Of a DNA stretch of 64,000 nucleotides, positions 51,378-56,664 are shown piece by piece. The DNA is taken from contig NZ_BMKD01000007.1 of NCBI RefSeq assembly GCF_014643835.1, positions 281,209-345,208 of the forward strand, read 5' to 3'. The stretch's first letter is position 1. Every line of letters begins with the position of its first letter. Source of the DNA: Mucilaginibacter rubeus (lineage in GTDB: Bacteria; Bacteroidota; Bacteroidia; Sphingobacteriales; Sphingobacteriaceae). A program made the translations under genes and the position numbers. Below the pieces are notes generated by a model, which saw only the letters and a list, made by a program, of their open reading frames with translations, was not told the DNA's origin and made no database searches.

Positions 51378-51409
51378 TTGCAAATCAGAAAATAATCTAC
51401 TTACTTTAC
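51378..51409 (+). promoter_or_regulatory. Probable promoter of the thr operon leader
   Basis: TTG (51378-51380), 21 bases, then TACTTTAC (51402-51409), six of eight positions of TAnnTTTG. Transcription would start a few bases before the leader ATG at 51421. Confidence 0.5.
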
Positions 51410-51420
51410 AGACATTATAT

Positions 51421-51486
51421 ATGACAATTAACAACACCATTTCTACAATTATTATTACCACCGGTATAAACCTCGGAGGAAGATAA
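51421..51486 (+). CDS. thr operon leader peptide (21 aa, Thr/Ile-rich)
   Basis: The ORF encodes MTINNTISTIIITTG followed by INLGGR and TAA. Thr occurs at residues 2, 6, 9, 13 and 14, Ile at 3, 7, 10, 11, 12 and 16: 11 of 21 residues. It lies 96 bases upstream of thrA, and a rho-independent terminator separates them. The last codons (51474-51482, CGGAGGAAG) are exactly complementary to 51528-51536 in the 5' arm of that terminator. By analogy with E. coli thrL, starvation for charged tRNA-Thr or tRNA-Ile would stall the ribosome early. That leaves the 3' end of the leader free to pair with the terminator arm, so transcription continues into thrA. The peptide itself has no other role. Confidence 0.85.
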   Translation: MTINNTISTIIITTGINLGGR

Positions 51487-51524
51487 TCGTATGGTGTAAA
51501 ACATAAAATGAAAGCCAAAAGAAA

Positions 51525-51557
51525 AACCTTCCTCCGCAAAGAGGAAGGTTTTTTTGT
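51525..51557 (+). terminator. thr attenuator: leader terminator before thrA
   Basis: AACCTTCCTC (51525-51534) and GAGGAAGGTT (51541-51550) form a perfect 10-bp stem with loop CGCAAA, followed by TTTTTTG. It lies only 25 bases before the thrA ATG, so it must control thrA rather than end another gene. The competing pairing is 51474-51482 with 51528-51536 (9 bp), which destroys the terminator stem. Confidence 0.88.
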
Positions 51558-51581
51558 TACAGAACGATTACTAACCCATAA

Positions 51582-54032
51582 ATGAAAGTTTTAAAATTCG
51601 GAGGTACTTCCGTTGGATCTGTAAACAGCATCCAAACCCTGTTAAGCATCCTGAAGGATGAAGTAAAAAATGAAGAAAAGCCGGTGGTGGTATTGTCAGC
51701 CATGGGCGGTGTAACCAACCTGCTTTCGGCCATGGCCGAAGATGCAGCCAACGGTATTGATTTTACCGCCGGGCTTGCCGAACTGGAAAAGCGCCACTTT
51801 GATGCGGTAAAGGCTTTGCTCGACGTGCAGAACCAGAATCCCGCCCTCACCCGTTTAAAAATTCACTTCAACCAACTGGAAGAATTGCTGCAGGGTGTAC
51901 TTACCCTCCGTGAGCTTACGCCTAAAACCCGCGACCAGGTGCTGGCTTTCGGCGAGCGCTGCTCAACACTGATGGTGAGCAAAATTGCAGCCCAGCATTT
52001 TGGCGATGTACTTTTTGTTGATGCTGCTGATGTAATTAAAACCGACAGCGCTTTCGGCAATGCTAAGGTAAACACCGAGCTTACCGAAAGGCTGGTACAA
52101 GGCCTGTATACCGAAAACAAAGGCAAAACATTGATCGTTACCGGTTTCATCGCCTCAAACGATGCAGGGCAAACTACAACATTAGGTCGCGGTGGGTCTG
52201 ATTATACTGCAGCCATATTCGGCGCAGCGTTAAATGCTCAGGAGGTTCAAATCTGGACAGATGTTAACGGTATGATGACCGCTGATCCGCGCATGGTTAA
52301 AAAAGCGTTCTCTTTAACCGAGCTTACTTATACCGAAGCCATGGAGCTTTCCTACTTCGGCGCCAAAGTGATCTATCCGCCAACCATGATCCCGGCATTT
52401 CTAAAAAAGATCCCTATCGTGATCAAAAATACCTTTGAGCCTGAGTTTGAAGGGACGGTGATCCGTCATGATTGCAAGGCCTCTACCCTGCCCATCAAAG
52501 GGATCTCATCTATCAATAATATCAGCATCCTCAATTTGGAGGGTAGCGGCATGGTAGGCAAATCGGGCTTTAGCGGCCGCTTGTTCTCCTTGCTTGCCCG
52601 CGAGCAAATCAACGTAATCCTGATCACCCAATCGTCATCTGAGCACAGCATTACTTTTGCAGTTCAGCCGCAAGATACAGACAGGGCAAAACAGGTTATC
52701 GAACAGGAGTTTGAACTGGAGCTTGCCGCCAAAAAATTGGAACATCTGGTTATCGAAAAGAATCTGGCCATCCTGGCCATTGTTGGCGAAAACATGAAAC
52801 AAACTCCGGGCATGTCGGGCAAGTTGTTCCATGCGCTGGGCCGTAACGGTGTTAACGTAAGGGCTATAGCACAAGGCTCATCAGAATATAACATCTCGGT
52901 GATCATCTCGGCGAACGATCTGTCAAAAGCCTTGAACGCCGTGCACGACGCCTTCTTTGTACAGTTGACCAAAACCCTGCATGCGTTTTGCCTGGGTACC
53001 GGCAACATCGGCAAAACATTGTTTAATCAATTGAACGCCCATAGCGAATACCTGAAAGATAACAACGGCATCCAGGTTAAAATAGCCGGTATCAGCAATA
53101 CCCGCAAAATGACGTTCAATAGTGATGGCATCTCTTTAGATACCTGGCAAAATGACCTGCAATCGTCGCCTTATGAAGCCGATCTGCAATCGTTCATCAA
53201 CCGGATGAAAGAAATGAACCTGCCAAACTGTGTATTTATTGACAACACTGCAAGTCCCGTTCCTATCGGTTTTTACGAGGAGATCTTTAAAGCCAATATC
53301 TCGGTGATCACCTGTAATAAAATAGGCAACTCGGGCAGTTATAAGCAGTACCGCACGTTTAAAGATACCGCACGCGCTCATGGCGTTGATTTCTTCTACG
53401 AAACCAACGTTGGTGCCGGTTTGCCAATCATCAATACCCTTAAAAACCTGATGAACAGCGGCGACAGAGTGCAGCGTATCGAAGCAATACTTTCGGGCAC
53501 TATATCGTTCATCTTTAATAACTTTAAAGGCGATGCCAATTTCCACGATGTGGTAAAAGAAGCCCAGGACAAAGGCTATACCGAACCAGACCCGCGTGAT
53601 GACCTTAGCGGTAAGGATTTTATGCGCAAAATGCTCATCCTTGCCCGCGATGCCGGATATGCTATGGAAGAGGCCGACGTTGAAATAGAAAGCGTGCTGC
53701 CAAAAGCGAGCCTTGAAGCTAAAACTGTTGAGGATTTTTATGCAACATTAAAAACCGAAGACGCGCATTTTGCCAAACTTAAAGATGCAGCCGAAAAAGA
53801 CGGCAAAGTATTGCGTTACATTGGCAAGTTAGAGGAAGGTAAAGTAACTATAACCCTGCAAATGGTTGATGAAAACCATCCGTTCTACATGCTGTCGGGC
53901 AGTGATAATATCATATCCTTTACTACCGACAGGTACCGCGAACGCCCGCTGGTTGTAAAAGGCCCCGGCGCAGGCGCCGAAGTAACCGCCGCAGGCGTAT
54001 TTGCTGATTTAATAAATGTGGGCGCTAATTAG
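51582..54032 (+). CDS. thrA: Bifunctional aspartate kinase / homoserine dehydrogenase I
   Basis: This enzyme catalyses the first and third steps from aspartate to threonine, methionine and isoleucine. The 816-residue product has the aspartokinase domain (KFGGTSVGS at residues 4-12). 'TTLGRGGSDYTAAIFGAALNA' (about 199-219) lies within it. Two regulatory ACT domains (about 315-460) include 'SSSEHSITFAVQP' and 'GSSEYNISVIIS'. The homoserine dehydrogenase domain has the NAD(P) loop 'CLGTGNIGKTLF' at about 470. 'YETNVGAGLPIINTLKNL' and 'DPRDDLSGKDFMRKMLILARDAGY' complete the catalytic region. It is preceded by a Thr/Ile leader and attenuator and followed by thrB and thrC. Confidence 0.97.
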   Translation: MKVLKFGGTSVGSVNSIQTLLSILKDEVKNEEKPVVVLSAMGGVTNLLSAMAEDAANGIDFTAGLAELEKRHFDAVKALLDVQNQNPALTRLKIHFNQLEELLQGVLTLRELTPKTRDQVLAFGERCSTLMVSKIAAQHFGDVLFVDAADVIKTDSAFGNAKVNTELTERLVQGLYTENKGKTLIVTGFIASNDAGQTTTLGRGGSDYTAAIFGAALNAQEVQIWTDVNGMMTADPRMVKKAFSLTELTYTEAMELSYFGAKVIYPPTMIPAFLKKIPIVIKNTFEPEFEGTVIRHDCKASTLPIKGISSINNISILNLEGSGMVGKSGFSGRLFSLLAREQINVILITQSSSEHSITFAVQPQDTDRAKQVIEQEFELELAAKKLEHLVIEKNLAILAIVGENMKQTPGMSGKLFHALGRNGVNVRAIAQGSSEYNISVIISANDLSKALNAVHDAFFVQLTKTLHAFCLGTGNIGKTLFNQLNAHSEYLKDNNGIQVKIAGISNTRKMTFNSDGISLDTWQNDLQSSPYEADLQSFINRMKEMNLPNCVFIDNTASPVPIGFYEEIFKANISVITCNKIGNSGSYKQYRTFKDTARAHGVDFFYETNVGAGLPIINTLKNLMNSGDRVQRIEAILSGTISFIFNNFKGDANFHDVVKEAQDKGYTEPDPRDDLSGKDFMRKMLILARDAGYAMEEADVEIESVLPKASLEAKTVEDFYATLKTEDAHFAKLKDAAEKDGKVLRYIGKLEEGKVTITLQMVDENHPFYMLSGSDNIISFTTDRYRERPLVVKGPGAGAEVTAAGVFADLINVGAN

Positions 54033-54150: not shown

Positions 54151-54247
54151 GCACAGCCCTCGCCTAAAAGCGACATATGATAGTTTGATATTTTGAATAA
54201 TGGAAGATAATAAGTTACAAGAATTAGCTCCCCCTTTAAGGAGCGGG

Positions 54248-55183
54248 ATGCGCGACAGTATCCACGTTTTTGCTCCGGCAACTGTAGCCAATGTGGTTTG
54301 CGGTTTTGATGTGTTGGGCTTTGCGGTTGATGAACCTGGCGATGAGGTAATCATGCGTGTGACGGGCAAACCTGGCATCACCCTCAGCAAGATTACCGGC
54401 GATGACGGCAGGCTGCCGCTTGATCCGGCAAAGAATACCGTAAGCGTGAGCGTTCAGCATTATTTACAAAGTATTGGCCGTACCGATATTGGTTTAGATA
54501 TCGAGCTGCATAAAAAAATGCCTATTGGCAGTGGTTTAGGTTCAAGCTCGGCCAGTACAGTTGCCGGTTTGTTTGCTATTAAAACATTATTAGGCGATGA
54601 TTCCGACCCGATAAAACTACTTCCGTTTGCCATGAAAGGCGAGGAAATGGCCTGCGGTCATGGCCATGCGGACAACGTTGCTCCTGCCCTGTTTGGTGGT
54701 TTTGTGCTCATCCGCAGTTATGAGCCCCTTGATGTGGTAAGGTTGCCGCATCCTAAAAACCTGTGGTGTGCCATCGTGTTCCCTGATGTTGATGTACCTA
54801 CAAGAGAGGCCCGCCAAATAATCCGTAAAAACATCCAGATGAAGGATGCCGTTACCCAGTGGGGCAATATTGCCGGCTTAGTAAGCGGTTTATTTATGCA
54901 GGATATCGACCTGATTGGCCGCAGTATGAAAGATGTGCTCGTTGAGCCAGTACGCTCTATGCTGATCCCAGACTTTTATAAAATGCGTGAAATGGCTATG
55001 GAACTTGGTGCGGTAAGCTTTGGCATCTCAGGATCAGGCCCGTCTGTTTTTGCTTTTACCAAAGACGAAGCCACCGCACGAGCCATCACCCAAAAGCTGC
55101 AACAGCACTTAACCGGCCTAAAGATCGGTTCAAACAGTTATGTATCAACTATAAATGACGCGGGGCCGAAGGTTTTGGGATAG
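54248..55183 (+). CDS. thrB: Homoserine kinase
   Basis: The enzyme phosphorylates homoserine for threonine synthase. The 311-residue GHMP kinase begins MRDSIHVFAPATVANVVCGFDVLGFAV. It has the ATP loop 'MPIGSGLGSSSASTVAGLFAI' (about residues 92-112), 'GHGHADNVAPALFGGFVLI' (about 136-154), and the C-terminal GHMP block 'VSFGISGSGPSVFAFT'. The longer frame starting at 54200 reads through a CTCCCCCTTTAAGGAG element. The ATG at 54248 has AAGGAG 6 bases upstream and matches the family start. It is separated from thrA by 215 bases containing a repeat, but is in the same direction. Confidence 0.95.
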   Translation: MRDSIHVFAPATVANVVCGFDVLGFAVDEPGDEVIMRVTGKPGITLSKITGDDGRLPLDPAKNTVSVSVQHYLQSIGRTDIGLDIELHKKMPIGSGLGSSSASTVAGLFAIKTLLGDDSDPIKLLPFAMKGEEMACGHGHADNVAPALFGGFVLIRSYEPLDVVRLPHPKNLWCAIVFPDVDVPTREARQIIRKNIQMKDAVTQWGNIAGLVSGLFMQDIDLIGRSMKDVLVEPVRSMLIPDFYKMREMAMELGAVSFGISGSGPSVFAFTKDEATARAITQKLQQHLTGLKIGSNSYVSTINDAGPKVLG

Positions 55184-55353: not shown

Positions 55354-56664
55354 ATGAAACTCTACAGTACTAATAATACCCTATCTGAAGTATCGTTCAA
55401 AGACGCGGTTTTTAACAGCATGCCGCAGGATAAAGGCTTATATATGCCTTACAGCATCCCCCGTTTGGATGACGACTTTATCAACAACCTTGATAAATAC
55501 TCCCTTCCCGAAATTGCTTTTAAAGTAGCCCAAAACCTGCTTGGCGACTCTATTCCGGAAGCAGATTTGAAAGCCCTGATCGATGACGCTATTAACTTTC
55601 CGGCTCCTATCGTAAAGCTGGAAGACAATGTGTATGTCCTCGAGCTTTTCCACGGACCATCACTGGCATTTAAAGATTTTGGCGCCCGCTTTATGAGCCG
55701 CGTAATGAGCTATTTCCTTGAGCCCGGCGAAAAACAACTGGACGTACTGGTTGCCACCAGTGGCGATACCGGCGGTGCGGTGGCTCTTGGCTTTTTAGGT
55801 GTCCCCAATACCCGGGTTACCATCCTTTATCCTAAAGGCAAGGTAAGCGGCGTGCAGGAGCAGCAGCTCACCACAAACGGCCAAAACATCCGCGCTTTGG
55901 AAGTCGATGGTACCTTCGATGATTGCCAAGCCCTGGTGAAACAGGCTTTTGTTGATGAGGAACTGAACGAGAAATTCCGCCTTACATCGGCCAATTCTAT
56001 TAACATAGCACGCCTGGTTCCGCAGACTTTTTACTACTTCAATGCCTATGCACAATTGTTAAGGCAGGGTATTAAAAAAGTGGTATTCTCGGTACCGAGC
56101 GGCAACTTCGGTAATATCGGCGCGGGTTTGTTGGCCTGGAAAATGGGGTTACCTGTCGAAAAATTTATCGCGGCTACCAATGTTAATGATACCGTACCTG
56201 AGTTTTTAAAAACCGGTGTTTATCAGCCTAAACCATCTGTAGCAACTTTATCTAACGCAATGGACGTAGGTAACCCAAGTAACTGGGTACGCATTGCCGA
56301 CCTGTTTAAAAACGACACCGAAGCGCTTAAAGAATTGGTTGTTGGCTTTAAGTACGATGACGAGGAAACTGTAAAAGCCATCAACTGGGTATTTGATAAC
56401 TATAATTATGTGGTTTGCCCACACACTGCTATCGCATGGCAGGCTTTAACCGATTATAAGCAGGACCATGCCGCTGTTGACACCGCCGGTGTATTCCTTT
56501 CAACCGCACATCCTTGTAAATTCCCTGACGTATTTAGCGATGAGGTTGCTGCTAAAATTGAAGTCCCGGAACAGGTAAAAGAACTGGAAGCAAAAACCAA
56601 GCTCGCAGTAGCCATTAGCAAAGATTTTGCTGATTTTAAAGGCTATCTTTTAGGGGTTAATTAA
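55354..56664 (+). CDS. thrC: Threonine synthase
   Basis: This PLP enzyme converts O-phosphohomoserine to threonine. The 436-residue product has 'MKLYSTNNTLSEVSFKDAVFNSMPQDKGLYMP' at the start and the PLP Lys in 'HGPSLAFKDFGARFMSRVM' (about residue 107). 'VATSGDTGGAVALGFLG' (about 131-147) binds the cofactor phosphate, and 'TSANSINIARLVPQTFYYF' follows. It has the class of long N-terminal domain typical of gamma-proteobacterial/Bacteroidota ThrC. It is in the same direction as thrA and thrB but separated from thrB by a repeat. Confidence 0.97.
   Translation: MKLYSTNNTLSEVSFKDAVFNSMPQDKGLYMPYSIPRLDDDFINNLDKYSLPEIAFKVAQNLLGDSIPEADLKALIDDAINFPAPIVKLEDNVYVLELFHGPSLAFKDFGARFMSRVMSYFLEPGEKQLDVLVATSGDTGGAVALGFLGVPNTRVTILYPKGKVSGVQEQQLTTNGQNIRALEVDGTFDDCQALVKQAFVDEELNEKFRLTSANSINIARLVPQTFYYFNAYAQLLRQGIKKVVFSVPSGNFGNIGAGLLAWKMGLPVEKFIAATNVNDTVPEFLKTGVYQPKPSVATLSNAMDVGNPSNWVRIADLFKNDTEALKELVVGFKYDDEETVKAINWVFDNYNYVVCPHTAIAWQALTDYKQDHAAVDTAGVFLSTAHPCKFPDVFSDEVAAKIEVPEQVKELEAKTKLAVAISKDFADFKGYLLGVN

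Follow-up and report, generated by a model that had tools for sequence, protein, structure and literature searches.

Description of the locus

The window, a 64,000-nucleotide stretch of DNA of Mucilaginibacter rubeus (contig NZ_BMKD01000007.1, positions 281,209 to 345,208 of the forward strand), carries the threonine operon thrABC, preceded by a short leader open reading frame (ORF) rich in threonine (Thr) and isoleucine (Ile) codons and by an intrinsic terminator. Judged by sequence comparison, the leader very probably (about 0.93) controls transcription of the thr operon as a ribosome-mediated attenuator, working like thrL of Escherichia coli. Features of the locus are the following.

51378..51409, plus strand: likely promoter, TTG at 51378-51380, 21 nucleotides, TACTTTAC at 51402-51409; a Bacteroidota-like -33/-7 pair.
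51421..51486, plus strand: leader ORF of 21 codons, MTINNTISTIIITTGINLGGR; ATG at 51421-51423, TAA at 51484-51486.
51434..51464, plus strand: strand 1, leader codons 5-15, putative partner of strand 2 (pairing 1:2, protector form); from the fold, swap and codon-permutation tests.
51436..51462, plus strand: sensing codons 6-14 (Thr/Ile); from codon conservation and the stall profile.
51473..51497, plus strand: strand 2, with the antiterminator part CGGAGGAAG at 51474-51482 and the post-stop ATGGTGT at 51491-51497.
51521..51555, plus strand: intrinsic terminator (pairing 3:4), stem 51521-51534/51541-51554, U-run 51549-51555; from fold and covariation.
51528..51536, plus strand: strand 3, CTTCCTCCG, 9-bp partner of 51474-51482 (pairing 2:3, antiterminator); from the fold and the swap test.
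51582..54032, plus strand: thrA, bifunctional aspartate kinase/homoserine dehydrogenase I; NF006959, 1047.5 bits against a cut-off of 726.
54200..55183, plus strand: thrB, homoserine kinase; NF002288, TIGR00191.
55354..56664, plus strand: thrC, threonine synthase; TIGR00260.

The leader ORF, as read from the window sequence, has 5 Thr and 6 Ile among its 21 residues. Along the RNA, leader codons 5-15 make up strand 1, the leader end with the segment after the stop makes up strand 2, and the two terminator arms are strands 3 and 4. CGGAGGAAG is the exact reverse complement of CTTCCTCCG, which lies in the 5' arm of the terminator. The terminator stem is characterized by 14 pairs, A-U and one G-U included, and an energy of -18.8 kcal/mol (fold of 51521-51556); the last U of its U-run lies 26 bases upstream of the thrA ATG. 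A first-pass annotation of this DNA had reported the 21-codon leader, its Thr and Ile counts, a terminator before thrA and the complementarity of the last leader codons to the terminator arm. All these elements were found again in the window sequence, the complementarity as an exact match. The terminator is slightly larger than the 10 bp at 51525-51556 given there, and the distance to thrA, given as 25 bases, is the 26 stated above. The pairing of strand 1 with strand 2 was absent from that annotation and completes the set 1:2, 2:3 and 3:4.

Products of thrA, thrB and thrC all score above the NCBIfam cut-offs, and the leader therefore lies directly upstream of a threonine biosynthetic operon. 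The true start of thrB may be further in, with homology from about residue 22. The N-terminal part of the window ThrA is 97-98% identical to that of M. gossypii and five neighbours (L001-L006; loci are cited by such numbers where they must be told apart).

A promoter before the leader ORF is weakly suggested by pattern matching. The pair TTG/TACTTTAC resembles what we take to be the -33/-7 promoter consensus of Bacteroidota. A loosened pattern, TTG-N17-24-TAn(n)TTT[AG], is found upstream of the leader in 137/192 loci of the family Sphingobacteriaceae (8.3 expected from shuffles); the claim is kept weak because the pattern was loosened after its strict form (TAnnTTT) had given 25/192. The predicted promoter ends 11 bases 5' of the leader ATG. 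The sensing ORF would be almost leaderless, with a predicted 5' untranslated region (UTR) of a few bases, in which no Shine-Dalgarno sequence is evident.

Conservation of the leader

Relatives were confirmed in 230 cases; the best 80 were kept and their upstream regions read (L001-L080), which with the window makes 81 Mucilaginibacter-type loci. Leader, GG(R/K/S)-stop end, conserved post-stop segment and terminator are present in 80 of them. The exception is L073, left out of the counts, whose upstream region is cut by a contig end. The post-stop segment is strongly conserved as TAATCGTATGGTGTAA and close variants. Codons 6-14 are Thr or Ile in 683/720 cases, compared with 131/320 at codons 2-5 and 64/240 at codons 16-18. 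Thr and Ile interchange at codons 7-12, and other residues are seldom seen there. Codons 13 and 14 are Thr in 78/80 loci each, spelled ACC in 155/156, unlike codon 9, where ACA accounts for 58/70 Thr codons. The fixed ACC fits a pairing of ACCACCGG with strand 2.

Both amino acids had been proposed as signals in the first-pass annotation. For Thr this holds; Ile appears to be optional. Leaders with no Ile exist (L046, L066) and every one of 99 Mucilaginibacter-type leaders has at least 4 Thr, so that Thr would be the constant signal.

An inverted-repeat insert rich in G and C, made of CCTCACCCTGCCCTCTCC and its complement, stands between terminator and thrA in 14 loci (L014, L017-L020, L023, L024, L026, L029, L031, L034, L038, L041, L077). 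Its 18-mer has 11-19 matches per genome, at up to 2 mismatches, in five genomes of the genus. It looks like a dispersed palindromic repeat.

In the wider family, a search with the ThrA N-terminus (E 1e-60 or better) gave a match in 132/151 sampled genomes and 21/25 genera. Upstream regions were read for 129 of the 132, three being skipped; adding the named loci and the window gives 210 family regions, near-duplicates included, of which 209 have an ORF. A Thr/Ile leader with terminator is present in 18/21 sampled genera with fused thrA, in 17 by scan and in the eighteenth by reading (L199, U-run interrupted). By the scan, 195/209 family loci have a terminator with U-run. Among the 14 missed, 8 have, by reading, a stem with interrupted U-run or irregular stem, and 6 belong to three divergent genera (L234-L239), which have the most divergent ThrA of the family list (44-47% identity). 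One of these genera (L237-L239) has a leader of a different kind; no leader is seen in the upstream regions of the other two (L234-L236). The C-terminal residues of the leader are kept within the genus (TTG, GG[RK]-stop) and vary between genera (QRG, RRK, GEGKCMV and others).

In L116, from another family and about 55% identical in the ThrA N-terminus, a terminator-like stem (GCCTTCCTCC...GAGGAAGGC) follows TGGAGGTAAGGC, and the ORF is Thr-poor. The region is possibly a variant of the Sphingobacteriaceae leader design.

Stall geometry

The 3' edge of a stalled ribosome was placed 12 bases past the first base of the A-site codon, a value assumed from E. coli. A stall at any of codons 6-14 then leaves 9/9 of the 2:3 pairs free; at codon 15 it leaves 7, at codon 16 it leaves 4, and from codon 17 onward none. 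The first-pass annotation had described the geometry as compact, so that early stalls might matter most. The counts speak otherwise: on this model Thr13-Thr14, far from marginal, would be the furthest sites at which a stall still frees strand 2, and the geometry would not be tight.

The same profile was computed for 170 of about 180 distinct family sequences, those with fewer than 5 antiterminator pairs being dropped. The Thr/Ile fraction is 0.82-0.96 at positions -8 to -1 from the last permissive codon, 0.35, 0.44 and 0.18 at positions 0, +1 and +2, and no more than 0.10 further on (0.10, 0.04 and 0.01 at the next three). In thrL of E. coli K-12, the positive control, Thr/Ile codons run to codon 16, and the free pairs fall from 10 to 9 at codon 15, 6 at codon 16 and 0 at codon 17. 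The position of the sensing codons appears to be the strongest functional argument, as it is predicted by a ribosome-positioned switch and no other reason for it was seen.

Pairing of the strands

The ribosome-free fold of lowest energy in the window (-36.9 kcal/mol) combines 1:2 with 3:4. The terminator stem covaries, with double changes in 8/10 consensus pairs (RNAalifold). For 1:2 and 2:3, swap tests were chosen because the register of strands 1 and 2 seems to shift from genus to genus; these and codon permutation keep the leader's content and were used as controls because the leader is low in complexity. Own partners were compared with partners from foreign genera in 57 sequences of 17 genera, at most 6 per genus, drawn from 194. 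Left out beforehand from the 209 regions were 14 without detected terminator and a leader low in Thr/Ile (L101). The strand-2 region was redefined by its distance to the terminator, because strand 2 lies inside the ORF in several genera.

For 1:2 the own partner is better in 51/57 sequences (p 3.6e-8; 16/17 genera), and for 2:3 in 42/57 (p 3.2e-6; 14/17 genera). Strand 1 with strand 3, a clean control, gives 31/57 (p 0.86). The redefined strand-2 region with strand 3 is positive too (37/57, p 0.0017) and is not a clean control, because the region now holds the antiterminator strand. A first swap test, made on 55 sequences with another region definition, gave 43/55 for 2:3 (p 1.9e-6; 13/16 genera). 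Permutation of codon order within the leader weakens 1:2 in 16/17 genera, with a mean z of -1.23.

The usual strand 3 is of CTTCC type; in all 40 sequences sampled from 153 of this type the own 2:3 partner is better. In genus g14 and some others strand 3 is of another type; a matching change in strand 2 is the rule there, and the own partner is better in 15/20. Examples of re-pairing are CGGGGC/GTCCCG (L108), ATCGGGAGC/GCTCCCGAT (L217) and TGGGGG/CCCCCA. The swap tests support both the antiterminator 2:3 and, with evidence of moderate strength, the predicted pairing 1:2.

Proposed mechanism and alternatives

What is shown here comprises the anatomy, its conservation, comparative pairing tests and how well the sensing codons fit a ribosome footprint. 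Attenuation of thrA, as put forward in the first-pass annotation, is strongly supported by the conservation, the swap tests and the position of the sensing codons. Transcription would start a few bases 5' of the leader ORF, and a ribosome would translate the leader at once. A shortage of charged tRNA-Thr (or tRNA-Ile) would make the ribosome stall in codons 6-14 and cover part of strand 1; strand 2, left free, would pair with strand 3, the terminator would be blocked and thrABC transcribed. When Thr is plentiful, a ribosome at the stop codon would mask strand 2, the 3:4 terminator would form and transcription would end near 51555. With no ribosome on the leader, 1:2 and 3:4 should lead to termination too. 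We infer where transcription starts, that it terminates in vivo, that the switch responds to Thr or Ile, and that ribosome and polymerase are coupled in this phylum.

Several results weigh against this mechanism or parts of it. Footprint sizes behind the stall geometry are presumed E. coli values. Before strand 4 emerges, the ribosome-free fold favours 2:3 (-19.9 kcal/mol, versus -16.5 for the earlier 1:2 fold), and termination without translation therefore depends on kinetics. The first swap test gave a weaker 1:2 (37/55, p 0.01; 9/16 genera), and codon permutation reaches p 0.05 in just 28% of 179 single sequences. Plain alignment adds little. In alignment A1 (39 rows of 60 picked sequences, leaders of other lengths or with doubtful starts left out), RNAalifold recovers the terminator only, neither 1:2 nor 2:3; the 2:3 helix is 73.7% paired versus 72.2% in shuffles, 50/500 of which are as high. 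This weak signal may be due to strands 1 and 2 slipping register between genera. The match to the Rfam family Thr_leader (RF00506) is full-length (E about 1e-5), at 38.2 bits versus a cut-off of 55. Alignment of relatives had been proposed as a check in the first-pass annotation: Thr/Ile codons, terminator and pairing are kept in them, with 2:3 borne out by the swap test and barely above shuffles in plain alignment.

Control at the thrA translation start or through Rho, rather than by an intrinsic terminator, is very improbable in this family. Many other thr leaders of Bacteroidota, as well as six hisG leaders, are without a U-run terminator (next section), and another mechanism therefore probably exists in the phylum. 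Against its operating here stand the U-run terminator, seen by scan in the great majority of family loci, and the covariation of its stem.

Equally improbable is that the main function lies in the peptide itself, whether as a trans-acting small protein or as a nascent chain arresting the ribosome, with the Thr/Ile bias as a property of the peptide. The C-terminal end kept within the genus would agree with it. That end, however, tracks RNA strand 2, and its residues become others across genera; Thr and Ile stand in for one another at codons 7-12, where other residues are rare; and the choice of Thr codon at 13-14 is fixed at the nucleotide level.

A chance Thr/Ile-rich ORF before an ordinary terminator of other transcription hardly deserves consideration: low-complexity ACN/ATN runs come easily in AT-rich DNA and intergenic terminators are common, but the leader recurs in nearly all Mucilaginibacter-type loci and most genera sampled, its sensing codons are fixed relative to strand 2, and detection of Thr-rich leaders in the phylum-wide scan gives 0/67 in reverse-complement controls and 3/335 in shuffles.

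A second leader design in Bacteroidota

Of the 73 upstream regions of thrA that were scanned, a phylum-wide sample supplied 67 (including one from Sphingobacteriaceae, with the first design) and the divergent genera of the family the other 6. A Thr-rich ORF ending in a GC hairpin that contains, touches or just precedes the stop codon is present in 19/73. These hairpin-type Thr leaders are the following.

Upstream of thrA: L118, L120, L122, L123, L126, L127, L137, L139-L141.
Upstream of thrA, continued: L242, L245, L248, L252, L258, L261, L237-L239.

In 18/19 no terminator is found by scan. The hairpin covaries; examples are ACCCC-TTA-GGGGT, ACGGG-GTAA-CCCGT and CAACCC-GTTAA-GGGTTG. Two other regions have a leader and terminator without such a hairpin; in the remaining 52 the scan detects no Thr leader. 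These 52 absences are soft: in 11/40 regions of one subset no start codon stands where thrA was assumed to begin, and L131 looks, by eye, like a missed case. After several hairpin-type Thr leaders comes ACATAT(A/C)ATCC and, judged by eye, another hairpin.

The same design, with histidine (His) codons, is present before hisG in six Sphingobacteriaceae genomes (L291-L296), three of them of the window's genus. The hairpin that ends leaders such as HHLHLHHHH is ATCGCC/GGCGAT or CACCAC/GTGGTG, and reading showed no U-run terminator in these six. Both designs occur in the same Sphingobacteriaceae genomes, thr with and his without a terminator. In L291-L296 a further small hairpin, its loop TACG-like, is seen by eye and seems to covary. 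An Rfam scan of 17 loci of the hairpin design (4 hisG, 13 thrA) gives no regulatory family at gathering score. Before ilvD, a leader of the window's kind was looked for by eye in six genomes and was not recognised; in L281-L283, of the window's genus, the 400 bases upstream of ilvD hold no Ile/Val/Leu leader ORF or terminator by eye.

A tentative and on balance doubtful reading is that Bacteroidota run one thr operon with two designs of leader switch: Sphingobacteriaceae would have reached a near-identical 21-codon thrL design independently of gammaproteobacteria, while other lineages, and the his operons of the same genomes, would use a stop-codon GC hairpin without intrinsic terminator, an undescribed mechanism of attenuation.

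Significance

The comparison gives evidence for ribosome-mediated attenuation in Bacteroidota, and hence for close coupling of ribosome and RNA polymerase. Bacteroidota are mostly without Shine-Dalgarno sequences. If the predicted transcription start is true, a nearly leaderless ORF would do the sensing. With one design repeated in E. coli and Sphingobacteriaceae and a different one elsewhere in Bacteroidota, convergence of attenuators becomes directly testable. The results also predict, among the short ORFs and terminated RNAs of these genomes, those that act as regulators and are not genes.

Comparison with known systems

No Rfam family, T-box and metabolite riboswitches included, reaches gathering score in the whole window. 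Nor was any description of thr attenuation in Bacteroidota found in the open-access literature. The first-pass annotation knew of no description of such a system in the phylum. That stands for thrA, for which no report was found; more broadly it needs qualifying, as the accessible part of a study on Flavobacterium psychrophilum gives clues of leader-peptide attenuation before amino-acid operons, with 5' elements of hisG and pheA that have no Rfam hits (PMC9723704). The phylum and the short peptides before amino-acid operons are shared with the window; in that part of the source no thr leader is named and no detail of mechanism is given. Bacteroid-trp (RF01692) is, in the portion of its source consulted, likewise a candidate cis-regulatory RNA of Bacteroidetes, whose name suggests the trp operon (PMC2864571). 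It differs in operon and has no match in the window. In 2010, according to an excerpt of another paper, leader-peptide systems had been shown, to its authors' knowledge, only in Proteobacteria and Actinobacteria before their own Firmicutes case (PMC2965389).

The closest known system is thrL of the E. coli operon thrLABC (RF00506, Thr_leader). Both leaders are 21 residues long and made of Thr and Ile codons; in both, Gly-rich last leader codons form strand 2, which pairs with the 5' arm of the terminator; the stall-position profile is the same; and thrA and thrB come next downstream, followed in E. coli by thrC. Differences lie in the strand sequences (GGAGGAAG versus GGTGCGGGC), in the Thr_leader score (122.1 in E. 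coli versus 38.2 in the window), and in the window-type leader having a very short predicted 5' UTR without evident Shine-Dalgarno sequence and sometimes no Ile codons. The window leader works like Thr_leader and is not placed in RF00506, because its score lies below the cut-off.

The window ThrA is 37% identical to that of E. coli over its length and 33% over the first 273 residues; fused ThrA (800-aa class) of Bacteroidota outside the family, among the matches listed, are 38-55% identical to it over the same 273 residues. Bacteroidota relatives outside the family with a recognisable Thr leader have mostly the other design. Horizontal transfer from gammaproteobacteria is not favoured, ThrA being closer to the listed Bacteroidota than to E. 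coli. The identities and the other leader design in relatives favour, over recent transfer, either convergence or ancient descent as the source of the likeness to thrL. In sum, the evidence supports well a classic thr attenuator, in a family for which no description of one was found. Its mechanism is a textbook one; new are the setting, a design nearly identical to that of E. coli, and the way it contrasts with a second class of leaders.

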